DNA of 50,372 nucleotides, from contig JAHJQX010000036.1 in NCBI GenBank assembly GCA_018818965.1, positions 1 to 50,372 on the forward strand. Direction: 5' to 3'. Positions within the stretch are counted from its first letter, which is position 1, and each line of letters opens with the position of its first letter. Made by a program: the position numbers and the translations under genes. Below are positions 15,268 through 42,441 of this stretch, one piece after another. The notes beneath the pieces are model-generated. The model was not told where the DNA came from and made no database searches. It saw only the letters and a program-made list of their open reading frames with translations. This DNA comes from Patescibacteria group bacterium. GTDB lineage: Bacteria > Patescibacteriota > JABMPQ01.

Positions 15268-16611
15268 TCAAAAGACTTTGTTGATTGCCTCTTTAACTGT
15301 GTCCACCATGATAATTTCACAATTTTTACAAGTTGGTTTGTCTTTTACTTTGGGTAAAATCACTTTGGTAAAACCAAGCTTTTGCGCTTCGTTTATCCTT
15401 TTGATCACCTGAGAGACTGCCCGCACTTCTCCCGCCAACCCTACTTCACCCAACACAATCATTTTGGAATCTAAGTTTTTATTCAAGAAGGAAGAAGCTA
15501 CTGACAAGCAGACTGCCAAATCAACCGCTGGCTCTTTAATTTTAAACCCGCCAACAATATTTAAATAAACATCGCGATCGTGTAGTTTTAAGTCTGCTCT
15601 CTTAGTCAAAACAGCCAACAGAAGCTGCAGGCGATTGACATCATAGCCCGAAGCCGTGCGCTTAGGGTAACCGAAGACGGTACGATCAGTCAGACCTTGA
15701 ACTTCTACCAAAAAAGAACGGTTGCCCTCTAGGGTAGCGGTGACGACTGAGCCTGGCGCCTCCACTTGGCGCTCAACTAGAAACAACCCGGCTGGGTTTT
15801 TTACCTCCACCAAGCCCTGATCTCTCATCTCAAAAACTCCCACCTCGTTGGTCGAACCAAATCTGTTTTTTACCGCACGCAATATCCGGAAGGAATGATA
15901 GCGATCGCCTTCCAAATATAAAACTACGTCTACCAAATGTTCCAACGTTTTCGGACCAGCGACATTACCTTCTTTAGTGACATGACCAGCGATAATTATC
16001 GGGATATTTAGAGATTTTGCCAATTCAATTAACTTGTACGCCGCTTCCCGTACCTGCGTAACACTACCGACCACCGAAGATATCTCATTGGACAAGACTG
16101 TCTGAATAGAATCAATTATGACTAGTGCTGGCTTTGTATCCCTAATCGTCGCTACAATATTATCAATATTCATTTCCGACAAAAAATTGAGGTTCTCGAT
16201 CGAGACCCCTAATCTCTGCGCTCGCATTTCTATCTGGCCGGCTGATTCTTCCCCGGAAACATAGAGGGTTGTGGGCACCTGACCACTACAGCCTGTTTGC
16301 AATAATAAAGTGGATTTGCCAATCCCCGGCTCGCCGCCAAGCAAAATAACCGAGCCCGGCACAATACCACTACCTAGCACCTGATCAAGCTCATTGATGC
16401 CAGTACTAATTCGGCGATCGGTGAATCCGCTAGCCTTAGCCAAGATCATCGGCTTAACAACTCGGCCGCTACTACCACGACTAGTAGCCGGTATTGACTT
16501 AGTTGCGACTGCTAGACAATCCCACTCTCCACAAGCTTCACATTTACCGCTCCAGCGCAAATGCTCAGCGCCGCATTTTTGGCAAAGATATATTTTGTCT
16601 GATTTAGCCAT
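15268..16611 (-). CDS. radA: DNA repair protein RadA
   Basis: A RecA-like ATPase/helicase that drives branch migration in recombination and natural transformation. The 447 residues show the N-terminal zinc finger (CQKCGAEHLRWSGKCEACG), Walker A GGEPGIGKSTLL at about residue 91, the RadA-specific KNRFGSTNEVG motif, and a C-terminal Lon-protease-like domain (NIVGGFKIKEPAVDLAV; VGLAGEVRAV). The start ATG at 16609-16611 gives the zinc finger at the right distance. It has its own promoter and runs convergent to the uvrA pair. The 68-base gap 15200-15267 contains only a short palindrome, tgtcgcgaca. Confidence 0.96.
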   Translation of the reverse strand: MAKSDKIYLCQKCGAEHLRWSGKCEACGEWDCLAVATKSIPATSRGSSGRVVKPMILAKASGFTDRRISTGINELDQVLGSGIVPGSVILLGGEPGIGKSTLLLQTGCSGQVPTTLYVSGEESAGQIEMRAQRLGVSIENLNFLSEMNIDNIVATIRDTKPALVIIDSIQTVLSNEISSVVGSVTQVREAAYKLIELAKSLNIPIIIAGHVTKEGNVAGPKTLEHLVDVVLYLEGDRYHSFRILRAVKNRFGSTNEVGVFEMRDQGLVEVKNPAGLFLVERQVEAPGSVVTATLEGNRSFLVEVQGLTDRTVFGYPKRTASGYDVNRLQLLLAVLTKRADLKLHDRDVYLNIVGGFKIKEPAVDLAVCLSVASSFLNKNLDSKMIVLGEVGLAGEVRAVSQVIKRINEAQKLGFTKVILPKVKDKPTCKNCEIIMVDTVKEAINKVF

Positions 16612-16740: not shown

Positions 16741-17895
16741 TCATTCTACTACGTACAATTTTTGGTCGATGTTGTTCAAAAAATATATTTTCTGATCATC
16801 CTGAGATAAAAGTATATTGTTTATATTATAAACTTTAGCGTTATCCAATCTAGTCACAGGTTCTATTCCACTCGTTTCGATATTGTATTTGACAATAACA
16901 TCATTAGAATCAACACCAAAAACTTTTTCGGATAAAGCACAAACCAGAATTGGTTTCTTGTGCTGTACTATACATTTCGATAAAAAATTATCAATACCTG
17001 TATATCTCCGATTGCTTCCATCTTCATCCATAATCCATATTTGAGGAATAAAATTTTCATTATCAAAAATAACATACAATACTTTACCGAAACTAGGGGC
17101 AAACAATATTTCTCCAATATCCCCCCAATCATCCATTTTTGAAACTTCTTTATTTCTAACATTCACTTTTTCAAACTCAGAGCCAGAAACATCTGAAGAT
17201 TCATAGGCATAATATACAGTCTGATTATCAGGGAACCAACCGAACACTATACCATCAGATGCCTCTTCATCAACGGGTTGGATATCAATTAAATTAACAT
17301 AATTGGATCCGTCTGGGTTGGAAACAGAAAAATAATTCTCATCCGATATGTAATTTATATACTGATAAGCAATCCTCCCACCGTTCAGAGAATAACTTAT
17401 ATCTTTTATATTCTTTGACAACTCGAAAACAGAATTATCAGTAACTTTATACAAGTAAAAGCCTTTAGTAGTGTTCAGATAGGCCTCATCATTCTCTGGT
17501 GACCAAATAAGTTCTTCGGTATCTTGTAAAAGGTCGTCGGAAAAATATACTTCCTGTTTATCGCTTTTGAGAGAACGCTTCATAATAGCATCCAGATCAT
17601 CCGATAAATAATAAATACTACCACCATCGGTGGAAACATGAGGAGAAATAATATTATCGTCAATCAGCAAAGAAATTTCTTTGAAATCATTCTGCTTTTC
17701 CCCATCGTCAGTCAGTAATTTGGCAAAATCATTATAGAGCTGCGATGGTAATTCTGTCTGATCTGGTTCTTTCTTTATAATACTTTCTGACAGTTGCTGA
17801 TCCTCTTTAGTCACAAAAGCAACAACAAAAACTGCTGCTGCTACTAATACCAGTAAAATCAAAGCAAGGATTATAACTTTACTTTTCCTCATCAT
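16741..17895 (-). CDS. Membrane-anchored TolB/PD40-like beta-propeller protein (second copy)
   Basis: 384 residues. A single N-terminal membrane segment (about 8-28, VIILALILLVLVAAAVFVVA) is preceded by MMRKSK, so the bulk should be outside the cytoplasmic membrane. The rest has PD40-type propeller blades: GGSIYYLSDD, DEAYLNTTKGFYLY, NQTVYYAYESS, QIWIMDEDGSNRR and KIYFLNNIDQKLYVVE. It is the last gene of the operon; its start abuts the stop of the NlpC/P60 pilin gene (17896). It has the same layout as 19064-20368, which also follows a pilin gene, so the pair looks duplicated. No enzymatic motif is visible. A scaffold or pilin-partner role is inference from position only. Confidence 0.7.
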   Translation of the reverse strand: MMRKSKVIILALILLVLVAAAVFVVAFVTKEDQQLSESIIKKEPDQTELPSQLYNDFAKLLTDDGEKQNDFKEISLLIDDNIISPHVSTDGGSIYYLSDDLDAIMKRSLKSDKQEVYFSDDLLQDTEELIWSPENDEAYLNTTKGFYLYKVTDNSVFELSKNIKDISYSLNGGRIAYQYINYISDENYFSVSNPDGSNYVNLIDIQPVDEEASDGIVFGWFPDNQTVYYAYESSDVSGSEFEKVNVRNKEVSKMDDWGDIGEILFAPSFGKVLYVIFDNENFIPQIWIMDEDGSNRRYTGIDNFLSKCIVQHKKPILVCALSEKVFGVDSNDVIVKYNIETSGIEPVTRLDNAKVYNINNILLSQDDQKIYFLNNIDQKLYVVE

Positions 17896-19032
17896 TTAAT
17901 CTTTATGCCAATAATGATCATATTTCATTGCCGATATTTTCACGCACTGGTTGCCTTTACAATTACTAGCCCCGCCCTTGCCAGCTCGAAATCTTCCCGT
18001 AGACGGTCCTTCCTGTGGTATTTTTTCGCAACTGGCACACTTATTTGTGCCCTCAGAATCAACTGCTAGCTTGGGACAATTTTTTTCACAAGTACTCACT
18101 CCACTTCCCGAATGAATACTACTACCACCACCAACATGAATGCCGATATGAGCACCACCGTTAACAACAACGTCACCAGATTGTACTCCGGATTGACCTT
18201 CATGTCTTTTCCAGCCATTTTTTAACAACCAACTTTCTAAACTAGAGACATTGACAATAATGCCATTACTACATCCGTCATCTTTTAAAACAGTGGAAAC
18301 AAACCAAGCACAGTGACAAGGACCAAAGCAAGTTCCTTGGTATTTATTGGCTTTAGCGACAAGATTTTTGCCACATGCCGAAGATGAACAGCACCATTTT
18401 TCTTCGGCAGTACCATCACACTTTTTAACAGTCGCGCTTCCACTCTTTTCTTCCTTCACTTTCCCACTACAACACTCACTTTTATTAGCTACCTGCACCC
18501 CATCTCCTTTACAGCTGCTACTGATTTCTTTGTCCTTGATACAAGGCTTGCTTTTATTAGAACATTTAGTTTCTGTTTTCTCACATTCCGATTGACTTTT
18601 ATATGCTTTCACACCTTCACAGCGAGAAACGTCAGGGATACTATAATCACCGCTCACCAAATTTACTGCCGGTATTTCAATTTTACACTCGATTAAATAA
18701 GGGTTAAGTGCCCAAAATAGAACATAAGAAAGAAAAGCGATAAACAAACCAGTTAAAGCCCCTTTAATTAAATCTTTGGCCTTCTCCAGCTTGCTAGAGT
18801 CTCCACTCGATATCAACCATAATAGTCCACCAAATAATACCGCAGCAAAGGCTAACGCTCCCGCTATTTTCATGGCAAAATCAAAAACAGCCTTCCAATA
18901 GGCGCAAGGATCATCTGTAGCCCCGAAGAAGCCAGACGTTGAAGACGCCAGAGCTGATTCAACCCCAACGCTTTCTCCCAGAAAGGCTACTAGCAACAGA
19001 ACAATCAAAAGAAACCATCCGATTTTGAACAT
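17896..19032 (-). CDS. T4SS-type pilin (VirB2-like) fused to an NlpC/P60 cysteine peptidase domain
   Basis: 378 residues in two parts. Residues 1-30 are a signal peptide ending near ALAS. Residues 48-75 and 92-112 are two hydrophobic helices separated by a short charged loop (SSGDSSKLEKAKDLIKG), the layout of CPR T4SS pilins (VirB2/TrbC type); a matching segment is in 20408-21100. A cysteine-rich linker follows (about 138-220). From about 230 comes an NlpC/P60-like core: HCAWFVSTVL with candidate nucleophile Cys241, SGDVVV, AHIGIHVGGG with His295, then IHSGSG with His307. NlpC/P60 enzymes cleave peptidoglycan stem peptides. The tail is again cysteine-rich. One open frame spans both parts with no break. 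The pilin and P60 calls are pattern recognition; the Cys-His arrangement is clear. Confidence 0.75.
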   Translation of the reverse strand: MFKIGWFLLIVLLLVAFLGESVGVESALASSTSGFFGATDDPCAYWKAVFDFAMKIAGALAFAAVLFGGLLWLISSGDSSKLEKAKDLIKGALTGLFIAFLSYVLFWALNPYLIECKIEIPAVNLVSGDYSIPDVSRCEGVKAYKSQSECEKTETKCSNKSKPCIKDKEISSSCKGDGVQVANKSECCSGKVKEEKSGSATVKKCDGTAEEKWCCSSSACGKNLVAKANKYQGTCFGPCHCAWFVSTVLKDDGCSNGIIVNVSSLESWLLKNGWKRHEGQSGVQSGDVVVNGGAHIGIHVGGGSSIHSGSGVSTCEKNCPKLAVDSEGTNKCASCEKIPQEGPSTGRFRAGKGGASNCKGNQCVKISAMKYDHYWHKD

Positions 19033-19063: not shown

Positions 19064-20368
19064 TTACGTTGCTGGCCCTTCGATTACTTTCCGCGGGACA
19101 TTCAAGGCGTAAGTATAGTTATCAACTCGATTCTTGTAATAGAATATCTTGTAATCGTTAGAAACGCTCTTGGCCTCGACATCAAAAATACCGGCGAATT
19201 CGTTTGAAGCAGCAATTAGTTCCACTGTTTGATCGGCTGTATTTATTTTGTAAAAAGAGTCAGTGGAGACAAAACGGCCATCCCGGTAATCATTGGGCAT
19301 CACCATATTGTCAGGCCAAAAATCAGGCACACCACAGTAAACAGTCTTATTATCTTTAGCCCAAGCACATTTACTAACTAGGGTTTTAATACCTAAATCC
19401 TTGGGCTTTTCTAGACAACTGGCATCCACTACGTATAAGCTCAAGCCACGGGGATTTTTAGCGTCTGATTGGTTAAAAATAATTTGCTGTTTATTGGGAG
19501 ACAACCCGGCCTCTACCATGGAAACAGAATATTGCTCACCCACACAAGCTCGGTAAGTACTATCATCAGTTTTAACTCCCGTATATAAATTCATCTCTGT
19601 ATAACCCGTCATCTCTAGTTCATTGGGACCAGCCGCGATGTTCTTATCATCTAGCCAAGTCAAATCTGCGTTAGGCTGGGTATGACGGTAGACCGACTGA
19701 TAGTTGCTCGTATCATAAGGGTCAGCGACGGAAATATTGGAAGTGTCGCTTTCTTCATCTTGATATACGTAAGCGATTTGATCCTGATCGGGAGAAAGAG
19801 TGACTGCCTGAAAATTTTCGTTGTAAGAAACTGTTTCCTGTGTATTCAAGTCAAAGAGAGAATATTTTTTATCCTGGCCATCATTTTCGGAAAAAGCAAT
19901 AACCGCTTTGTCTTTATTTTCTGACCACTCGATATCATAAACATTCTGGAAATTGGCAGAAGTGATAGCCTTAGCGTTAGAACCATCGAGGTCAGACATA
20001 TATAACTCACCCTTTTCCGGATCATAGTAATAAAGACTCTGGCCATCGGGGGATATAGTAGTGGCGATAGTATTATTCTCATTGATAGAACGGACGGTTG
20101 GCACGTCTACTTCAATCGATTCTATTTCCTCCCCTTTTTCTAAGGCTAGCTTACGATCCTTTTCAATCTTGGCAATTTTTTGCTCTAAAGTCAGGCCAGA
20201 AGCCGTCTCGTCATCGGTCAGAGACAAACGCACTCTTTCTTCTTGGGTGACTTTAGCTTCTTCGGGGATTTCGGCTGGCTTCCGCAGGAAGAAATAATAA
20301 ACAGCCGCACTGGCTACCGCCAGGACAGCCACCGCTGAGACCACAACTATGATTACCTTTTTGGACAT
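19064..20368 (-). CDS. Membrane-anchored TolB/PD40-like beta-propeller protein (first copy)
   Basis: 434 residues with an N-terminal membrane helix (about 4-27) after MSKK, then a charged linker predicted helical (residues 40-80, rich in Glu/Lys), then propeller blades such as TTISPDGQSLYYYDPEKGEL, VTLSPDQDQIAYVYQDEES, AGLSPNKQQIIFNQ and CAWAKDNKTVYCGVPDFW. The SPDGQ/SPDQD motifs are typical of TolB-type PD40 repeats. It lies directly after the pilin gene 20408-21100, as its paralogue at 16741 lies after the second pilin. It is probably an extracytoplasmic protein-interaction scaffold. No catalytic motif is seen. Confidence 0.7.
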   Translation of the reverse strand: MSKKVIIVVVSAVAVLAVASAAVYYFFLRKPAEIPEEAKVTQEERVRLSLTDDETASGLTLEQKIAKIEKDRKLALEKGEEIESIEVDVPTVRSINENNTIATTISPDGQSLYYYDPEKGELYMSDLDGSNAKAITSANFQNVYDIEWSENKDKAVIAFSENDGQDKKYSLFDLNTQETVSYNENFQAVTLSPDQDQIAYVYQDEESDTSNISVADPYDTSNYQSVYRHTQPNADLTWLDDKNIAAGPNELEMTGYTEMNLYTGVKTDDSTYRACVGEQYSVSMVEAGLSPNKQQIIFNQSDAKNPRGLSLYVVDASCLEKPKDLGIKTLVSKCAWAKDNKTVYCGVPDFWPDNMVMPNDYRDGRFVSTDSFYKINTADQTVELIAASNEFAGIFDVEAKSVSNDYKIFYYKNRVDNYTYALNVPRKVIEGPAT

Positions 20369-20407: not shown

Positions 20408-21100
20408 CTACTGACATTTATATAAAACTACCCCATATTTTTCCTCTTTGGTCAGCGTGCATTTGGTTCCACTTTTACAAGTGTACTGACCGGATGGTCC
20501 TCCCCATTTTTGCGGTTTATCCATGCTCCCCACACAACTATCACCCGCAGAGCCACATATAGCTCCTGAGGGAAGAACGCATTTACCACCCAGGCATTTG
20601 TAATCCAAAGTTAGTGCTACACTACCTTTCCCGGTGAACGGGAGTCCACAATACTCAAAATTAACATACGCGCCTAGGCACTGATTATCATTAGTGCAGG
20701 ATGCTTCATTATTATTGGTGGTTGGCGTTACTTTCGCCAAATCCACACTAGTAATCTCAAGCTTAAGCTCTACCAGCCGCGGATCCAGAGTACGCAAGAG
20801 TACAAAAGAGCCCAGTACAAGAAACAGCCCCATCAAGGCCGCAGCAAACATTTCTTTCGACTTAGTAACGTGCTCTTCATTACCACTAGCTCGCATGTAA
20901 TTAACCCCGGCTAGCACAATAAACATCATCGCCAACGCCCCGACAATCATCGCCCCAAACCAATAAACCTCATTGATATACTGGGTAACATCGCCCGATG
21001 AACTAAAGAAAGCTGCTCCAGCTCCATGAGTTGGAATAACAACTATCACTCCCAGCAGAAACAACCAGCCTAATTTTTGAAAATATCGAGCCATGAACAT
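20408..21100 (-). CDS. T4SS-type pilin (VirB2-like) with cysteine-rich C-terminal domain
   Basis: 230 residues. A signal peptide (MARYFQKLGWLFLLGVIVVI through GAGA) is followed by two hydrophobic helices, about 45-68 and 85-106, joined by MRASGNEEHVTKSKEMFAA. This is the same short charged loop as in 17896-19032 and as in VirB2/TrbC-type pilins. Residues 130-230 form a cysteine-rich domain (ASCTNDNQCLG, DYKCLGGKCVLPSGAICG, GQYTCKSGTKC) with no known catalytic motif, replacing the peptidase of the sister pilin. Two ATGs are possible (21100 and 21094); both leave the signal peptide intact. It lies between the giant surface protein and a propeller gene. Confidence 0.7.
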   Translation of the reverse strand: MFMARYFQKLGWLFLLGVIVVIPTHGAGAAFFSSSGDVTQYINEVYWFGAMIVGALAMMFIVLAGVNYMRASGNEEHVTKSKEMFAAALMGLFLVLGSFVLLRTLDPRLVELKLEITSVDLAKVTPTTNNNEASCTNDNQCLGAYVNFEYCGLPFTGKGSVALTLDYKCLGGKCVLPSGAICGSAGDSCVGSMDKPQKWGGPSGQYTCKSGTKCTLTKEEKYGVVLYKCQ

Positions 21101-24868: not shown

Positions 24869-25828
24869 TTAGAATATGGAGTTATAAATAATTACCACAA
24901 TCCAAATAACAAATATGGCAAGCGCAATCCAACCCCCAAATTTTACTGCGAGCGGCCAGATAATATTAATGATCAACCACCAAGCAGCTCGAGCCATGAT
25001 GCGCGCGGCTGCTTTGGCTGCTTTGGCGGCCTCCTTAGCTGCTTTGGCGGCTGCCTTGACTCTATCAGCTGCTTTCTGGGAAGCACCTTCTTGCCCTCCT
25101 TCGCCTCCCTCATTGGTCGGCTTATCACTTTCTCCCTCTCCCTTTTGCTCTTGCTCATCTCCCTCTTTGTTCCCTTCACCTTCCTCTTCCCCATCCTCGT
25201 CTTCGTTTTTTCCTTCTTCCTCATCCTCATCCTCATCTTCTTCGTCCTCGTCCTCTTCTTCCTCATCCTCATCTTCTTCTTCGTCCTCTGCTCCATCAAA
25301 ACTATCTAGCTCAGGATTATTATCTCGAATCATTCTCCCTCCAAACATATCCGGCCTACTTAATAACTCATTAGTAAGTCCCTGCTGCTCTTCATCAAAC
25401 CCATCCTCTCCTGTTTCCGTTGAATCACTCCCCCCAGCAGTTCGACTCAACGGTCTAGACATCAAGTCGTTTTTATTGTTCAACTTCACCAGGCGACGCA
25501 GGCGACGCATGTGTGCCTTTTTTAAACCCCTAGATCTTTTCCCTCCATCGTGTTCCATCTCTAAAACCGAGACGGCTCTGCCAATATTATAACCTGGTTT
25601 AAAATTAACTTCTCCCCCGGCAAAAAATCCAGCGATATCAGCGATATCTTGGCTTTCACCCTGCCGAAAATCTTTAAACCTCTGCCAATAGTGAGATCCA
25701 AACCAAGTCGGTAAATATTTTTTGATATTAAATTCTTGACGTCGCCGGCGCGTACGTAAAGAACGAAAATATTCTCCAAAATAGTTCTCTCGTTCTAATC
25801 TGTTTGTTGTTTTAACCGAGTCAGCCAT
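24869..25828 (-). CDS. Acidic low-complexity protein with basic N-terminus and C-terminal membrane helix
   Basis: Not recognised. 319 residues in clear blocks: a basic, Arg-rich N-terminal region (about 1-130; RSLRTRRRRQEF, KAHMRRLRRLVKL), a neutral linker, an almost uninterrupted Glu/Asp run (about 178-235), a Gly/Glu segment, an Ala/Lys helix (ADRVKAAAKAAKEAAKAAKA), and one C-terminal membrane segment (about 287-317). With no signal peptide, the body is probably cytoplasmic with a tail anchor. The Glu/Asp codons make a long purine-rich strand at about 25165-25300; the antisense Ser-rich frame there is an artefact of it. It sits between the lipoprotein and the giant surface protein in the T4SS-like operon. 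Confidence 0.65.
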   Translation of the reverse strand: MADSVKTTNRLERENYFGEYFRSLRTRRRRQEFNIKKYLPTWFGSHYWQRFKDFRQGESQDIADIAGFFAGGEVNFKPGYNIGRAVSVLEMEHDGGKRSRGLKKAHMRRLRRLVKLNNKNDLMSRPLSRTAGGSDSTETGEDGFDEEQQGLTNELLSRPDMFGGRMIRDNNPELDSFDGAEDEEEDEDEEEEDEDEEDEDEDEEEGKNEDEDGEEEGEGNKEGDEQEQKGEGESDKPTNEGGEGGQEGASQKAADRVKAAAKAAKEAAKAAKAAARIMARAAWWLIINIIWPLAVKFGGWIALAIFVIWIVVIIYNSIF

Positions 25829-26576: not shown

Positions 26577-28541
26577 TTAAACGTCAGCTGGTATTTCCTC
26601 CCCCTCGGTAGTAGCCGCATCAAGCTCCGCTGCTTCGGCATCGTCAGCCACTTCTTCCAGCTCTTGCTCGGCAAATTCTCCCTTGGCTTTCTCAATTTCC
26701 AGCAATTGTCGTGGGTCAGTCGTAATCACCTGATCTTCAGAATAGGAGGCGACTACTTTCATTGCCACATGCTTGGGACCAGCGAAAAATATTCCTTCGC
26801 CCACATCTGATTCCATCAATAAATATTTCTCTTGCTCCGTCAGACGAAACGTTTTGGTCAAAACATCAATATTGGCCGATGACTGCTTCATTAGAATTTG
26901 CATAGCGGAGTTGGTTACAATCGCCTTGCCGTAATCGGAGGTGAGAAAATCATTAACGTCCTGGCTAATAGTAGTCAAACCCACATAATATTTACGTCCT
27001 CGCTTAGCTAAACTAAACATAAAACGAGCTGAGTCTTCGTACTGCATCATCCACCAGGCCTCATCAATCACAATCAACCGCTTTTTCATCTCAGCGCGGA
27101 CTATATTCCAGATATAGTTAAGTATAACATACATGGCAATCGGTCGCAGTTCGTCTTCCAGATCACGAATGCTAATAACAACTAAGCCAGTTTGTAAATC
27201 TACGTTGGTTAACTCATTAAAGAGGCCAGCAAAGGTTCCTTCGGTATATTTTTTAACCCGCGGAACCAGTTCCTCCGCCCCAGTCATCCCCTCTAAAATA
27301 CTCTGGAAATCTTGCATGGTCGGAGGGGTAATCTGTGATAGATCGCTGTTTTCGGTAATATCCCGCTTGGCATAGGTCTCGTTGAGGGCGCTATCAACTA
27401 AAGCGTCTTCTTCTTTGGTCATTCGTCCCATCATCAAACGCAGCAGGCCTTTTAGATTGATAACGGCAGAGCGAATAATATCAGCGGTGGTCATATCAGA
27501 TACTGCCGGTGGTAAATCAAAAGGGTTAATACGATACTTAGAATCCAACGATACCCGCAAATAGGTACCACCAACTGTTTCTGCCAAATAGCGATACTCA
27601 TTTTCTGGATCAACTACAATTACATCAGTTCCAAACATCAGACTGCGAAGGATTTCTAACTTAACAGCGTAACTCTTCCCGGCCCCTGAAGTAGCAAAGA
27701 CGACTGAGTTAGCATTAGGCAAAGAAAAGCGATCAAATAAAATTAAACTGTTGTTGTGGCGGTTGATACCATAAAGTATCCCCTCATTAGAAGTTAGTTC
27801 TGAAGAAACAAAAGGATAGGAAGTTGATAACGGACTGGAATTCATGCTGTTAATAACGTTCAGCTCATCTTTGCCGTAGGGCAGAGTAGAATTAAAACCT
27901 TGCTCCATCTGAAAAATAGCTTTTTTGGAGTAAATCAAGCGTTGCCCCAGGATACTTTCGATAGTTTTGGTCTTTTCTTCCAACGCCTTCTTACTATCAG
28001 CGTACAGGGTTATATAGAGGGCAAAGTAGAAAAATCTTTCTGTGCCTTGTACCAGCTTGTCCCGCAACTCTTCAACATCCATCAAAGCTGTTTCAAGCAT
28101 TGGGTCACGAACTTGTCCTTTCTCTTGCTGGGCGGAAATAGTAGACTGAATCTGGCCTGTTTTCCCTTTTAACATTTTCAAGATCTTTTGCGTTTCTACC
28201 GGGGTAATAAACATTGATACATCCAACTCTTCGTTAAGATTAACAATCGGAGCGAACCAACCCGTAGTAACATAGCGCGGATAAGTAAAGATAAACAGCG
28301 TACGCACAAACTGCTGATTAAGACGTATATGGTCAGCCTCGATCTTCATCGCCGCCGGAGCAATAATGTCCCTAACTGTTACTACCCCCTTCTTGAAAAC
28401 CTCCTCTATTTTGAGTAGCTGCTCTTGTTCTTTTTGTGTTAGGTTGGCAAAGTCTTGCTTGCCGATAGGAACATCGCTAGCATTTGCAGTCACGGCTGCT
28501 GACTCTCCTGGGGTCGGATTGTTATTGTTGTTTCCTGCCAT
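26577..28541 (-). CDS. virB4: VirB4-family type IV secretion ATPase
   Basis: 654 residues. The N-terminal VirB4 domain occupies about 60-250 (IAPAAMKIEADHIRLNQQFV; FITPVETQKILKMLKGK). The C-terminal RecA-like motor has Walker A ATSGAGKSYAV (283-293), DVIVVDPENEY, Walker B RLIVIDEAWWMM (488-499) and the downstream TTISQDVNDFL motif. VirB4 ATPases energise pilus assembly and substrate transfer at the inner membrane. The C-terminus is acidic. It follows the TraC-like gene by 9 bases and the lipoprotein gene lies 14 bases further on. It is the only ATPase in this operon: no VirD4 or VirB11 is found. Assignment to the VirB4/TraC superfamily is secure; the transported substrate is unknown. Confidence 0.95.
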   Translation of the reverse strand: MAGNNNNNPTPGESAAVTANASDVPIGKQDFANLTQKEQEQLLKIEEVFKKGVVTVRDIIAPAAMKIEADHIRLNQQFVRTLFIFTYPRYVTTGWFAPIVNLNEELDVSMFITPVETQKILKMLKGKTGQIQSTISAQQEKGQVRDPMLETALMDVEELRDKLVQGTERFFYFALYITLYADSKKALEEKTKTIESILGQRLIYSKKAIFQMEQGFNSTLPYGKDELNVINSMNSSPLSTSYPFVSSELTSNEGILYGINRHNNSLILFDRFSLPNANSVVFATSGAGKSYAVKLEILRSLMFGTDVIVVDPENEYRYLAETVGGTYLRVSLDSKYRINPFDLPPAVSDMTTADIIRSAVINLKGLLRLMMGRMTKEEDALVDSALNETYAKRDITENSDLSQITPPTMQDFQSILEGMTGAEELVPRVKKYTEGTFAGLFNELTNVDLQTGLVVISIRDLEDELRPIAMYVILNYIWNIVRAEMKKRLIVIDEAWWMMQYEDSARFMFSLAKRGRKYYVGLTTISQDVNDFLTSDYGKAIVTNSAMQILMKQSSANIDVLTKTFRLTEQEKYLLMESDVGEGIFFAGPKHVAMKVVASYSEDQVITTDPRQLLEIEKAKGEFAEQELEEVADDAEAAELDAATTEGEEIPADV

Positions 28542-28550
28542 TTAAATAGA

Positions 28551-29381
28551 TTATTCGGTCTCGATATTGAGTCTCTCTAGCTCAGCCAGTACCTCTGTGC
28601 CGGCCAAATCAGGATTGTAATTAGCATAAAACAATTCTACTACTTCTTGTGTGTTAAGCTGGGCGGAACGAATTCCCATCCCTCGCAATCCCCCGACTAC
28701 CTGAGTAACTCGTTGGGATAATTCCTGGATAGCCCGGTCGTAACTAGCTATTTCCACCTTTACTTCTCGAGCGGGGCTAACTATTTCCTTTGCTCGATCC
28801 ATAATGGACGTACTTCCAACCTTAGGTGCTCCCATGTAAGGAACCACCACGTAGTAGTGATTAGAGGTAATATTTGCTAATTCTACTAGCTGTTTAATAT
28901 ATTCTTTATACTCAGAGATTTGCATCCGAAGAAGTTCATTCTCTTGCATTTTCTCGGCGTCGCTAAGTTTTTCTAAATAATTTTTAATGTTGAGAACCCG
29001 AGATTGAACAATAATTTGCACCGTAAATTCCAAAGAGTTAAGAAAATCTTGGTAGCCGAAGATCATTGATTTTTGCTCATCCTCAGACATCAGCGAAAAA
29101 TTAACTGAAGAAGCCATCACCACCGAACGGAAACCCCCATCTTCTAACTCGACGATACCATCTCTGATCCCTTTTATTTTGAGATATTTCTGGGTACTGA
29201 CTCCCGCCTTACTAGCCGAACCACGGGAATCGCTCTTACCCGGCAACAAGCCAGTTAGAGAAGAAAAAAAAGATTTCGGCGCTGCTTTCTTCACGGAAGA
29301 AGTTGATGCCGGTGATGAAGTTTTTTCCTCTTTCTTCGTTTGTTCCTGATAGGGTTGGACAGGCATTTTTTTCTTAGCCAA
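28551..29381 (-). CDS. TraC-like/VirB4-N-like T4SS-associated protein
   Basis: 276 residues. After a low-complexity Lys/Ser N-terminus (1-60) a folded part begins with STQKYLKIKGIRDGIVELED, continues through MASSVNFSLMSEDEQKSMIF and QIIVQSRVLNIKNYLEKL, and ends with a helical region (YDRAIQELSQRVTQVVGGLR). This resembles the N-terminal, motor-less domain of VirB4/TraC proteins and the 'TraC-like' proteins regularly found between PrgI and VirB4 in CPR and Gram-positive conjugation-type operons. It has no Walker motifs. The neighbouring VirB4 already has its own N-domain, so this is not half of a split gene. Membrane helices are absent; it is probably cytoplasmic and bound to VirB4 or PrgI. Confidence 0.7.
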   Translation of the reverse strand: MAKKKMPVQPYQEQTKKEEKTSSPASTSSVKKAAPKSFFSSLTGLLPGKSDSRGSASKAGVSTQKYLKIKGIRDGIVELEDGGFRSVVMASSVNFSLMSEDEQKSMIFGYQDFLNSLEFTVQIIVQSRVLNIKNYLEKLSDAEKMQENELLRMQISEYKEYIKQLVELANITSNHYYVVVPYMGAPKVGSTSIMDRAKEIVSPAREVKVEIASYDRAIQELSQRVTQVVGGLRGMGIRSAQLNTQEVVELFYANYNPDLAGTEVLAELERLNIETE

Positions 29382-29402: not shown

Positions 29403-29822
29403 CTAGGCTCTATCTAAAGTATTAGAAACTTCTTGTAATTTACTCTTGACCAGCCGTTGACCTTCTGTAAAAACCATATTTTCCATTTCCTTCTGCGCTG
29501 TTACTTTCTTTTCTTTTGAGGAAGCCTTAATCTTTTCTAGAGCCGGTTCCCGGAACCAAACCCGCAAGCGAGGATTAGAAAAATAATGGATAATAGAAAG
29601 TAAAAATATTTGGAAGGGTCGGCCGTTGATTTTGACAAAAGAGAAAGCCACTACAACTATCACTACTATTAGAGCTAGTATAATAAACAAGCTAAGATCA
29701 GCCAACGACCAGATAATCAGCAACATAACACCTCCGATCACCATATACAAAAACTGACGCACAGTCAGTGGCCCGATTACCTTGTCTTCTACTTCGATAA
29801 ATTGCGGAACAGCGTATTGCAT
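29403..29822 (-). CDS. PrgI-family inner-membrane T4SS protein
   Basis: 139 residues. The N-terminus YAVPQFIEVEDKVIGPLTVRQ is the PrgI-family signature, followed by two adjacent hydrophobic helices (about 25-45 and 48-65), the sequence KINGRPFQIFLLSIIHYF and a basic/helical C-terminal tail. PrgI proteins are the small inner-membrane partners encoded next to VirB4 in Gram-positive type IV secretion systems, where they take the place of VirB3. It is 21 bases upstream of the TraC-like gene. Role as VirB3 analogue is established for the family; activity here is inferred. Confidence 0.9.
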   Translation of the reverse strand: MQYAVPQFIEVEDKVIGPLTVRQFLYMVIGGVMLLIIWSLADLSLFIILALIVVIVVVAFSFVKINGRPFQIFLLSIIHYFSNPRLRVWFREPALEKIKASSKEKKVTAQKEMENMVFTEGQRLVKSKLQEVSNTLDRA

Positions 29823-31201: not shown

Positions 31202-33661
31202 CTAAGGTAATTCGGCGTTGGCGACAGCAAAGAAGTCTTTTAACCCAAGAGTATCGGTTGATGCATGACGATGGGTGCCAGTGTGAGTGGTAACTCCACC
31301 TACTGCCCGATGTTCAACTGCACAACCCTTGGCATACATAATACGCATGCGCTTCTTTAATGTTCGCGCTTCTTTATCCCAGTGTTCTACTTCTATCTGT
31401 TTTCCCCTCCTAACAGCACCAGCCCTTTTCCTGGCTATTTTAGAAGCAGCGCTATTGGGAATAGCTGCATCCATATTTTGGACAGCTCGTCTTTTCATAT
31501 GCTGATAGTTAGGCTGACGGACTAATGAGGCGGCATTTCCGGTTAAATCGGTATCTTCAACAGTTGCTTTCAGGGCATCAATATAATCTTGTCGAGCCTC
31601 GGATATTCTTTCGACATCAACCTCGTCCTCATGCTCGAGCTCATTCCAACCCGGTTCATGTATTTCACCTAATTTGCCCTCTCTCTCAACAGCCACATTG
31701 TTACTATGTTGTTTTCGGTTTCGTTCACGACCACCTATCTTACGTCTTTTGTCCTCGCGGATCCAGGCTTGTTGCTCTTGGCTTGACCAGACCCATCTTT
31801 TTCTGGCAGTGTCGTAGGTAGTCCGACCGGATAAAACCGGCTGACCATTTTCCGTGGGAATTTCTTGCAGTTCGGCCATCGCCTGACAAGCTAGTTCACT
31901 ATTGCCCAATTCTGCTCGTTGAAACTCTTTCCACAAATCAGGGTGATAAAAAGGCTTATCGCGATCAGCTCCAGTGACGATCGGATTACCATTCTCATCC
32001 CGTAGTTTTAAGAACCTCTTAAAATGCTTGGCCCAATTTTCAGGATCAGTCAAAGCATCATTTTGGTTACTGGTCTGCTCAAGCTTTTTAAAATAGGCTA
32101 GTTTTTCTTCCATCGATCGAGCTCCCTTATACCCTTGGACTAATTCTGGGCTAGAATCAGTACCAATTTCGTCTTCTTTCTTTTTCTCGAGAGCCCGCTG
32201 GGCTCGCCGAGCAAAGGTCGTTCTTTCTCCACCAATAACCCGGTTGAGTGCGTCATAGACCTCGCCCGTCGGCCTTCCTAATGCTTCTTCTTCTACTCGC
32301 GTGCGCCGCTGCCGCCAAGCTTCCGGCAGTAGTGTCGCCTTAGCTGGCAGACGCGCTAATGACCCCGGCAAGCCAACCAATGCTCTGGTTCCTTTTTCTG
32401 CATAGCGACCATAATTCCATTTACCAATCTTCTTGCTTCCTAATTTTCCCATAGCATTATTAAACCCCTGCCCAAGTCGACTCTGGCTCAACCAAGTAGC
32501 GGCAGTTCCTCGCCCTACCCCCAGCAACGCCCGCCGCGCTGTCCTGCCCAGTGGTCGCGCTCCCCAGTTCCAGGCTGTTTTGCCCAAGAATCTAGATCCC
32601 CCCTTAGCCAATCCTAGTGCCATACCAGAGGCCATCGGTGACAGCGACTTGGCCATAAAGATAGCCAGATAGAGAAAAACGATCATTACCGCCATCCGAT
32701 AGAAACCATTGACTGTCAATATACTTGTACCAGAATACAACTGTCCTTTGACATCATTGGCATTAACCATTAACCCTTTACCGCCCTTATCCTGGGTGAT
32801 ATTATAGGCGACCATTGAAGCTAAATAGACCAAGAAGCCAACAATTGGTCCATAAAAGACATATTTAAAAAACTTTTCCCACCATTGACTAGCGTATTGT
32901 GCTGTTTTGGGCAAAATGTTTAGAACAAAGGCGACTGGTGACAGAATAACCAAAGCCATTAGCGCAACATTACGGACAATAATCATTATAGACAATAGTG
33001 ATAGGGCTACCATCACAAAACCCATAATAATGACCGTAAGAACTATAGCGATCACTATTTCCTTGATTACTGTGTATTGACCAGCATCCTGTAGGTTTCG
33101 AAAGGCCGAGTCGGCCACTGTTTGCGGCATTGCTTTAAAGAGAGCCATAGAAAACGTCTCGCCAAAAGTATAGCCATTAATATTCAGAAAAGTCTTCATC
33201 AAAATATTGGAAAAATCAATGAAGATCCCGGCGATTGTTTTACTGAAATTTACCAACAAAGCAGCGTAAACCAACTTGGGCAGCAATGCTTTATACTGAT
33301 AAGATTCAATCCGCAGAATGGTAGCGAAGGCGATAATTAGCAAGGAAATAACGAAGAACATATTTAATACGTCTCGCGTTATTCCCCAACCAGTAATCAC
33401 TACCGGATCATTCATGATATCAGGGCTACTATGATAAACATGGCTAAACACCTGGCCAGATAATACCAAAAGGAAAGTCTCAACTTGCAGAATCAAAGCC
33501 ATCACATATCCGATCACTAAAAATAAAAACTTTAGTAAATCTTCAGCGCTTGGTATCCATCCTGCCGAAACCACATGAATGGGCAATAAAACTGCTGACC
33601 CGATAGCCAGACTTACTTTTACCAGCCAAAATATTTTTTTATTCTTGGTTTTGTTTTTCAC
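31202..33661 (-). CDS. VirB6/TrbL-like polytopic membrane protein with long C-terminal extension
   Basis: 819 residues. The first half is a VirB6/TrbL-type channel: a signal-like N-terminal helix (about 10-32), then hydrophobic segments near 40-68, 90-113, 128-150, a long pair at 200-250 (VIAIVLTVIIMGFVMVALSL, MIIVRNVALMALVILSPVAF), 265-285 and 322-345. The loop after LSPVAFVLN with ASQWWEKFFKYVFYGP is typical of the TrbL/VirB6 family. Residues from about 360 on are soluble, basic and Arg-rich, and end in a charged tail of some 450 residues of unknown fold. It would form the inner-membrane channel energised by VirB4. Family call rests on topology and the short conserved loop. Confidence 0.8.
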   Translation of the reverse strand: MKNKTKNKKIFWLVKVSLAIGSAVLLPIHVVSAGWIPSAEDLLKFLFLVIGYVMALILQVETFLLVLSGQVFSHVYHSSPDIMNDPVVITGWGITRDVLNMFFVISLLIIAFATILRIESYQYKALLPKLVYAALLVNFSKTIAGIFIDFSNILMKTFLNINGYTFGETFSMALFKAMPQTVADSAFRNLQDAGQYTVIKEIVIAIVLTVIIMGFVMVALSLLSIMIIVRNVALMALVILSPVAFVLNILPKTAQYASQWWEKFFKYVFYGPIVGFLVYLASMVAYNITQDKGGKGLMVNANDVKGQLYSGTSILTVNGFYRMAVMIVFLYLAIFMAKSLSPMASGMALGLAKGGSRFLGKTAWNWGARPLGRTARRALLGVGRGTAATWLSQSRLGQGFNNAMGKLGSKKIGKWNYGRYAEKGTRALVGLPGSLARLPAKATLLPEAWRQRRTRVEEEALGRPTGEVYDALNRVIGGERTTFARRAQRALEKKKEDEIGTDSSPELVQGYKGARSMEEKLAYFKKLEQTSNQNDALTDPENWAKHFKRFLKLRDENGNPIVTGADRDKPFYHPDLWKEFQRAELGNSELACQAMAELQEIPTENGQPVLSGRTTYDTARKRWVWSSQEQQAWIREDKRRKIGGRERNRKQHSNNVAVEREGKLGEIHEPGWNELEHEDEVDVERISEARQDYIDALKATVEDTDLTGNAASLVRQPNYQHMKRRAVQNMDAAIPNSAASKIARKRAGAVRRGKQIEVEHWDKEARTLKKRMRIMYAKGCAVEHRAVGGVTTHTGTHRHASTDTLGLKDFFAVANAELP

Positions 33662-41169: not shown

Positions 41170-42441
41170 ATTAGTACCAAAAAACTCCTGACTCTTCTAA
41201 AAGCCCGACAAAATGGGCAGAGTCAAACCGAATCTTCAAACAAAATTGATAAATACAAATTTCTCGTCTCTAAGGTAACTAGCAAAGTAAAGGAAATCGT
41301 AACCGACCGCAGTAAACATATTGTTTCTGTCGGTGTTTTAGTGGTGACCATAGCCTTTGCTGGCTTTAACGTCTATGCTCAAGGAAACGAGCAACCGGGC
41401 AACAACGACAAAAGTATCCTGCTAGGATTTTTAGAGGGGCAAGAGGAAGATAATTACGAAATCGTTACCAATAATCTTGACCGGAAAAAGAACCGTCAAG
41501 AAAACGATCGTTTCTCGATTGTCTCAATTGCCAGCGCCACTGCCAATTCGCCTGCTTCTTTGACCACCGCCACAACTGGCAGTAATTTAGCTGCTAAAGA
41601 ACAAAAACAAGAAATGGCGGCCGTGGGTGGTAACACTCTGGTTAAAAATAGCCCAACAGATACCACTATTTCCTACAAACCACGGACTGATATCACTACC
41701 TATACTGTGAGGGAAGGTGATACTATCCACTCGATTGCTAACAAGTTTGGCGTGGACGCAGCTACTATTCTTACAGAGAGTGAAAAATACGCTGATGATA
41801 TTATTAAACCAGGAGATAAACTTACTATCTTACCTGTTTCTGGTACCACCGAAAGAGTTGATAAAGGCGAAACTTTAGCCGGTATTGCTAAGAAACACGG
41901 AGCTGATATGGAAGGGATTATGGCTTTCAACGAGTTGGTTAATGACACTGATATCGAGGTAGGCCAAATCCTGGTTGTTCCCGACGGTGAACGTAAGATT
42001 GAAAATAGACCACAACCAGAAGTTGATACTTCTACTCGTTATGCTTACAATTCTACTAGTACTTCTAGTAATCGAACGTCATCAGTAGTACAGAGAGACC
42101 AAACTACACCCGTTGTTAGCAAAGGGCCCAGCGCCGGTAATCGTTTCTCTTGGGGATGGTGTACTTGGTACGCAGCCCAAAGACGAGGAGATGTTACTTG
42201 GCGAGGCAACGCCGGCCAATGGCTAAACAATGCCCGCGCTCAAGGTAGAGCGACCGGTCGTACTCCGGCCAAAGGAGCGATCATAGTAACCTCAGAGAGT
42301 TGGTGGGGACATGTTGGTATTGTCGAAAATGTACAAGGTGATAAAGTGACTATCTCGGAGATGAATTATAAAGGATTCGGTATAACTAGTACCAGGACCG
42401 TGTCTAACCGGAGTGGAGTGATTAAGGGTTATATTTATTAA
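41170..42441 (+). CDS. Secreted LysM-LysM-CHAP peptidoglycan hydrolase (probable ATT start)
   Basis: A secreted wall hydrolase. Two LysM modules (YTVREGDTIHSIANKFGVDA; VDKGETLAGIAKKHGADMEG) bind glycan. The C-terminal CHAP domain contains the catalytic Cys in FSWGWCTWYAAQRRGD and the His in SWWGHVGIVENV, followed by ISEMNYKG. CHAP enzymes are amidases or endopeptidases on peptidoglycan. The first ATG/GTG/TTG codon in frame is a GTG at 41341, which would cut the hydrophobic signal helix in half. The frame is open from 41152 and encodes a natural N-terminus, (M)STKKLLTLLKARQ ... HIVSVGVLVVTIAFAGFNVYA, if the ATT at 41170 is used. An AGAAGG Shine-Dalgarno site lies 11 bases in front of it. I therefore chose 41170; the conservative alternative is 41341. 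Gene identity is firm, the start less so. Confidence 0.8.
   Translation: MSTKKLLTLLKARQNGQSQTESSNKIDKYKFLVSKVTSKVKEIVTDRSKHIVSVGVLVVTIAFAGFNVYAQGNEQPGNNDKSILLGFLEGQEEDNYEIVTNNLDRKKNRQENDRFSIVSIASATANSPASLTTATTGSNLAAKEQKQEMAAVGGNTLVKNSPTDTTISYKPRTDITTYTVREGDTIHSIANKFGVDAATILTESEKYADDIIKPGDKLTILPVSGTTERVDKGETLAGIAKKHGADMEGIMAFNELVNDTDIEVGQILVVPDGERKIENRPQPEVDTSTRYAYNSTSTSSNRTSSVVQRDQTTPVVSKGPSAGNRFSWGWCTWYAAQRRGDVTWRGNAGQWLNNARAQGRATGRTPAKGAIIVTSESWWGHVGIVENVQGDKVTISEMNYKGFGITSTRTVSNRSGVIKGYIY

Follow-up and report, generated by a model that had tools for sequence, protein, structure and literature searches.

Patescibacteria are ultrasmall bacteria of a parasitic type. In known T4SS, the wall hydrolase VirB1 and the pilin VirB2 are separate proteins, and a 2025 survey of Patescibacteria T4SS counted them separately, using PF18895 for VirB2 (PMC12102498). 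According to its passages on these proteins, VirB1 is mostly missing in the phylum, most VirB2-bearing genomes are without it, and pilus biogenesis was inferred to be VirB1-independent; the passages on pilins, VirB1, hydrolases and fusions mention no pilin-hydrolase fusion. Within the literature searched (subscription papers and preprints lay outside its scope), PF18895 is named in that survey only, and searches aimed at pilin-hydrolase fusions turned up no account of one. The part of PMC10936435 that lists T4SS-pilin proteins of host-attached Paceibacteria does not mention fusions either. In the sole Patescibacterium so tested, the T4SS is essential (PMC11665869). T4SS wall hydrolases as such are known; Gram-positive VirB1 proteins, for instance, are membrane-anchored and carry external SLT, CHAP or LytM domains (PMC12857230). 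What we rate as new at the locus described here is that a putative hydrolase of this kind has a pilin as its anchor and heads that can be exchanged.

The window, i.e., the whole stretch of 50,372 nucleotides that was analyzed, contains an unbroken ORF of 378 aa at 17896–19032. A first-pass annotation had described this ORF, without giving its strand, as a signal peptide and two-helix pilin segment fused to an NlpC/P60 peptidase, in contrast to the separate VirB1 and VirB2 of known T4SS. The single frame and this contrast stand, and the strand is minus, as for all features listed below. Hydropathy analysis gave three hydrophobic segments (residues 1–29, 48–78 and 87–114), the first forming the signal peptide region (18946–19032), with a putative cleavage site, and the latter two being separated by a Lys-rich loop. 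PF18895 matches residues 46–105 with 31.0 bits (Pfam cut-off 26.6), and the two-helix hairpin was delimited to residues 43–116 (18685–18906) by this match, alignment and hydropathy. Thus, a PF18895 match above cut-off, a signal peptide and a two-helix hairpin, by which a T4SS pilin is recognized, are all present. Two of the 23 Cys residues of the protein, Cys43 and Cys116, border the hairpin and are invariant across six aligned pilins, one per genome of the class with G002 left out. A Cys-rich linker (residues 125–214; 18391–18660) follows; likeness to the same-genus protein ends here, and the heads diverge. The peptidase head (residues 215–378; 17899–18390) was placed by profile comparisons and by alignment with a relative in genome G004. 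Its predicted nucleophile Cys241 (18310–18312) lies in HCAWF, aligned with DCSGF of NlpC/P60, the predicted catalytic base His295 (18148–18150) in AHIGI and the predicted third catalytic residue His307 (18112–18114) in IHSGS, exactly the residues and the order claimed previously. The fusion protein had no matches in NCBIfam and PADLOC, and none when used alone as a query against genome contigs and plasmids.

An assembly join, chimera or frameshift between the two parts, which had been named as a possible source of the fusion, is ruled out by alignments of two independent genomes and by an even G+C content of the ORF (0.41–0.42). An independent genome of the same genus aligns to residues 25–213 (47%, E-value 5e-47), and G004, which belongs to the same order but to a different genus and family, spans pilin, linker and head in one alignment (residues 17–308, 28% identity, E-value 8e-29). 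Both alignments cross from pilin to linker, and that of G004 also extends into the head.

The assignment of the head depends on the type of comparison. In single-sequence Pfam searches, NLPC_P60 reached 14.5 bits (cut-off 23) and Amidase_5 15.5 bits (cut-off 21), both sub-threshold; the HMM comparison with NlpC/P60 families that the first-pass annotation suggested as a check thus gave no match above cut-off, whereas profile-profile homology was obtained. An alignment of two heads compared with 29 NlpC/P60 domains of Patescibacteria in hhalign gave a probability of 96.0% and a score of 53.9, with at most 18.6 in 100 column shuffles and 14.7 against an SLT profile as controls. A profile of these 29 domains scored the window head with 9.4 bits and the G004 head with 17.0 bits, the best of 200 shuffled heads reaching 1.9. 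At E ≤ 1, the two-head profile matched nine PDB sequences, every one a wall hydrolase of NlpC/P60 type or from a phage, each with a weak E-value (0.02–0.64); phmmer searches of PDB with two NlpC-headed relatives had no match. The Cys, both His, a GD motif and a GGGxxIHS stretch are kept in G004. AlphaFold2, run on the single sequence without an alignment, yielded uninformative models, with a pLDDT of 43 for the whole protein and 41 for the head alone. Judging from the profile comparisons and motifs, we regard the head as an NlpC/P60 peptidase of divergent sequence, for which a papain-like fold would be expected.

In the window, the fusion gene is linked to a VirB4 cluster. Reading the minus strand from 36 kb to 15 kb, the order begins with a TSP3 protein, an unknown protein, a VirB6/TrbL-like polytopic protein (31202–33661; weak Pfam match below cut-off), another unknown protein, a PrgI/VirB3-type protein (29403–29822) and VirB4 in two genes, the N part (28551–29381) and the C part (26577–28541; NF045971, 368 bits, cut-off 325). 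A lipoprotein-like protein, an acidic membrane protein and a 1220-aa protein follow, then another PF18895 pilin, which ends in a short Cys-rich tail and lacks a recognized head (20408–21100), a beta-propeller protein (19064–20368), the fusion, a membrane-anchored beta-propeller-like protein (16741–17895), itself a conserved neighbor, and finally radA (15268–16611), identified from its sequence and forming a conserved cluster boundary. The division of VirB4 (276 and 654 aa; 26577–29381) recurs in G006 (272 and 621 aa) as well as in L126 and L130 from beyond the class, and is therefore a conserved split rather than a frameshift. The headless pilin at 20408–21100 has kin in G001 and G006 on a branch of its own. 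The T4SS operon also encodes, at 24869–25828, a protein in which a very long run of Asp/Glu precedes an Ala/Lys segment and the C-terminus forms a hydrophobic helix. No further wall hydrolase was recognized inside the T4SS cluster; a LysM-CHAP protein is encoded about 5 kb beyond it (41341–42441). The genome (1.2 Mb, 100% complete) contains no SLT domain, either in the fusion protein or elsewhere, and no NlpC/P60 candidate other than the fusion. A four-gene array of pilins is located on another contig than the fusion.

Seven genomes of the class (G000–G006, five families) were compared. A pilin-type gene follows the propeller gene in all seven, radA adjoins the fusion-type gene wherever the contig extends far enough, and T4SS genes are found upstream in most. 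Each of these genes combines the pilin with a wall-active domain, the type of which varies: NlpC/P60 in G000 and G004, SGNH ahead of the pilin and SLT behind it in G001 and G005, SLT with Amidase_2 and SLT with SGNH in the two copies of G002, C39_2 in G003 (where the contig ends within the fusion) and Amidase_2 in G006. Pfam E-values for the relatives' heads are 4e-12 for SLT, 1e-9 for GDSL, 3e-21 and 2e-15 for Amidase_2 and 3e-9 for C39_2; wherever the SLT and SGNH motifs were inspected, they are intact. All of these domains, like NlpC/P60, fit work on peptidoglycan. The two genomes of the window's own genus are alike in the pilin and in most of the linker (47%, residues 25–213), and the likeness ends where the head starts. 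In G002, whose VirB4 is on another contig, the pilin-hydrolase/propeller unit is doubled: two tandem pilin-hydrolase genes (L042, 2826–9207), each with a propeller-type membrane gene, have near-identical pilins and different heads. This pair is a duplication with head exchange. Hence, the first-pass annotation was right about the domain pair and the catalytic residues, but the one fusion it described is a member of a conserved gene family in which the anchor is kept and the wall-active heads are exchangeable.

Across the phylum, a profile built from these pilins had matches at E ≤ 1e-15 in 52 of the 380 genomes sampled, and about 51 of the 74 places among the matches listed, counted by eye, lie in an ORF of at least 290 aa. 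To the 56 proteins examined, Pfam (E ≤ 1e-3) assigned SLT (6), GDSL_2 (4), C39_2 (3), Amidase_2 (2) and one each of M15_4, GH18, SLT_3 and NLPC_P60; PKD domains occur in four, and most have no recognized enzyme. The search for the same domain pair in other Patescibacteria, proposed earlier, succeeded not only in G004 but also in L178, outside the class, where PF18895 (45 bits) and NLPC_P60 (34 bits) are both above cut-off in one ORF. The pilin-domain tree (80 columns) leaves many forks unresolved, but a branch with an SH-aLRT of 96 sets apart 56 rows, every one with an extension; the array pilins, L178 and that G002 fusion which the tree includes fall outside this group. The enzyme label requires 10 changes on this tree compared to 15.0 in shuffles (0 of 500 as low). 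Since strongly supported branches force at least five changes, enzyme heads were gained and lost repeatedly. The idea that NlpC or SLT genes of the phylum commonly occur as pilin fusions was rejected: among the 30 best loci of each type, a convincing pilin domain was present in one for NlpC/P60 and in none for SLT. Several further extensions were observed. Those of L119, L132, L137 and L139 show motifs of the SHxxN...HYxGxxxDI...H type with the look of M15/LAS zinc peptidases, possibly hydrolase heads; the two that were scanned, L119 and L137, gave no M15/LAS Pfam match. In G344, three extended pilins lie close together (L124, 8981–10285, and neighbors), one with a weak beta/gamma-crystallin match. 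A PF18895-type pilin domain in G369 (C24, 7479–7703) lies inside a 4734-codon open frame, which may encode a giant surface protein anchored by its pilin domain.

As for function, the first-pass annotation had offered two roles, wall opening during assembly or cutting of a neighboring cell's wall. The reading we put first, with a probability of roughly one half, is a membrane-anchored, head-swappable peptidoglycan hydrolase linked to the T4SS, which would use a VirB2-type hairpin as its anchor and do the job of VirB1. After removal of the signal peptide, the hairpin would be seated in the cytoplasmic membrane, its Lys-rich loop facing inward and its two outer ends perhaps pinned by a Cys43–Cys116 disulfide; the Cys-rich linker would remain outside, as would the NlpC/P60 head. 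The head would cleave stem-peptide bonds of peptidoglycan through Cys241, His295 and His307. Held beside the VirB3/VirB4/VirB6 machine, the protein could clear the cell's own wall for the apparatus, as VirB1 does elsewhere. Related genomes keep the hairpin and the gene's place but have another head: a C39 peptidase, an amidase or a lytic transglycosylase accompanied by an SGNH esterase. Two points favor this VirB1-like role on the own wall: monoderms offer a precedent in their membrane-anchored VirB1 (PMC12857230), and a separate SLT gene is lacking. On the other hand, the LysM-CHAP hydrolase at 41341–42441 counts against it, as VirB1 function could come from there, and head exchange inside one genus would be odd if the own wall were the substrate.

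That exchange favors the host wall as substrate instead, and the most serious alternative, still tentative, is that the protein acts as a tool directed at the host. Its pilin part would then be a minor or tip subunit of a T4SS pilus, or be shown at the contact site, the head would cut the neighbor's wall, and heads would be swapped to match host walls. Changes of head type between genomes of one genus and across the class are what is expected of host-facing proteins, some heads in the phylum (GH18, PKD or crystallin-like) are not bacterial wall enzymes, and T4SS-pilin proteins are among the highly expressed extracellular proteins of host-attached Paceibacteria, according to the relevant part of PMC10936435. 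However, the array pilins, which are compact, branch separately and are located on another contig in the own genome, and a head of 250 residues is bulky for a packed filament subunit. A bolder version, which we regard as rather doubtful, would extend this to the phylum: a second T4SS pilin lineage carrying exchangeable enzymatic heads on the apparatus or pilus would cut the host wall, as a contact-dependent device that replaces VirB1 and is host-adapted by head swapping.

How far the hairpin is tied to the T4SS outside the class bears on a further, unlikely explanation: it may have no T4SS role now and be a generic two-helix anchor displaying many surface proteins, some of them enzymes of ordinary wall turnover. 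The same pilin branch indeed bears many unrelated extensions, mostly without a recognized enzyme, and outside the class these genes are usually away from VirB4. Several outgroup fusions (SLT, M15, SLT with SGNH, GH18) adjoin radA and the propeller, and their neighbor is a clpA/clpB-type gene, not VirB4; the large proteins beside these units had been considered as VirB4, which was rejected, five of seven being of the ClpA/ClpB type. Because the propeller/pilin/radA unit is not beside VirB4 in most other lineages, the T4SS link there is one of co-occurrence only. In the window's class, however, the gene sits in the VirB4 operon in conserved order, in G190, outside the class, a headed pilin lies beside VirB4 and PrgI, and VirB4 is present, nearby or elsewhere, in all 19 headed-pilin genomes tested. 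Finally, it is very improbable that the head is no NlpC/P60 peptidase, or a dead one serving as a peptidoglycan-binding adhesin, as proposed for inactive VirB1 homologs of Gram-positive systems (PMC12857230): despite the Pfam scores under cut-off, the profile-profile probability is 96% with clean controls, and Cys, His and His are kept in G004 at 28% overall identity.

A wall hydrolase behind a pilin domain would account for part of the VirB1 absence in Patescibacteria, since heads of the NlpC, amidase, C39 and M15 types would escape a search with a VirB1 profile, while the protein would be scored as VirB2 when pilins are searched for. Pilin-anchored hydrolases may also explain how T4SS machines pass walls without the usual separate enzyme. 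The natural head swaps provide ready test pairs for distinguishing the own wall from the host wall as substrate.

Compared with known systems, the fusion shares the hairpin domain and signal peptide with the VirB2-like pilins of Patescibacteria (PF18895; Mbov_0395-type NF045849), but has about 260 extra residues with a peptidase head, two Cys flanking the hairpin and a place on a separate branch. Its head has the Cys, His, His order and the GD motif of the NlpC/P60 endopeptidases MepS/Spr, LytE and RipB, the profile match covering the core; unlike these, it is divergent and joined to a pilin hairpin by a Cys-rich linker. L178, from another family of the phylum, has the same domain pair in the arrangement pilin, Big_2 and NlpC/P60, but with an Ig-like spacer instead of the Cys-rich linker, a pilin outside the headed branch and a gene not beside VirB4 in the stretch read. 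Finally, the VirB1 family (the Gram-positive PrgK of pCF10, TraG of pIP501 and Orf14 of Tn916, and Gram-negative VirB1) comprises T4SS-linked peptidoglycan hydrolases, which is what we propose for the fusion. It differs from them in its anchor, a PF18895 pilin hairpin, and in its NlpC/P60 head, the type of which varies among related genomes; the SLT domain typical of VirB1 is missing from the fusion itself, but is carried by its relatives in G001, G002 and G005.
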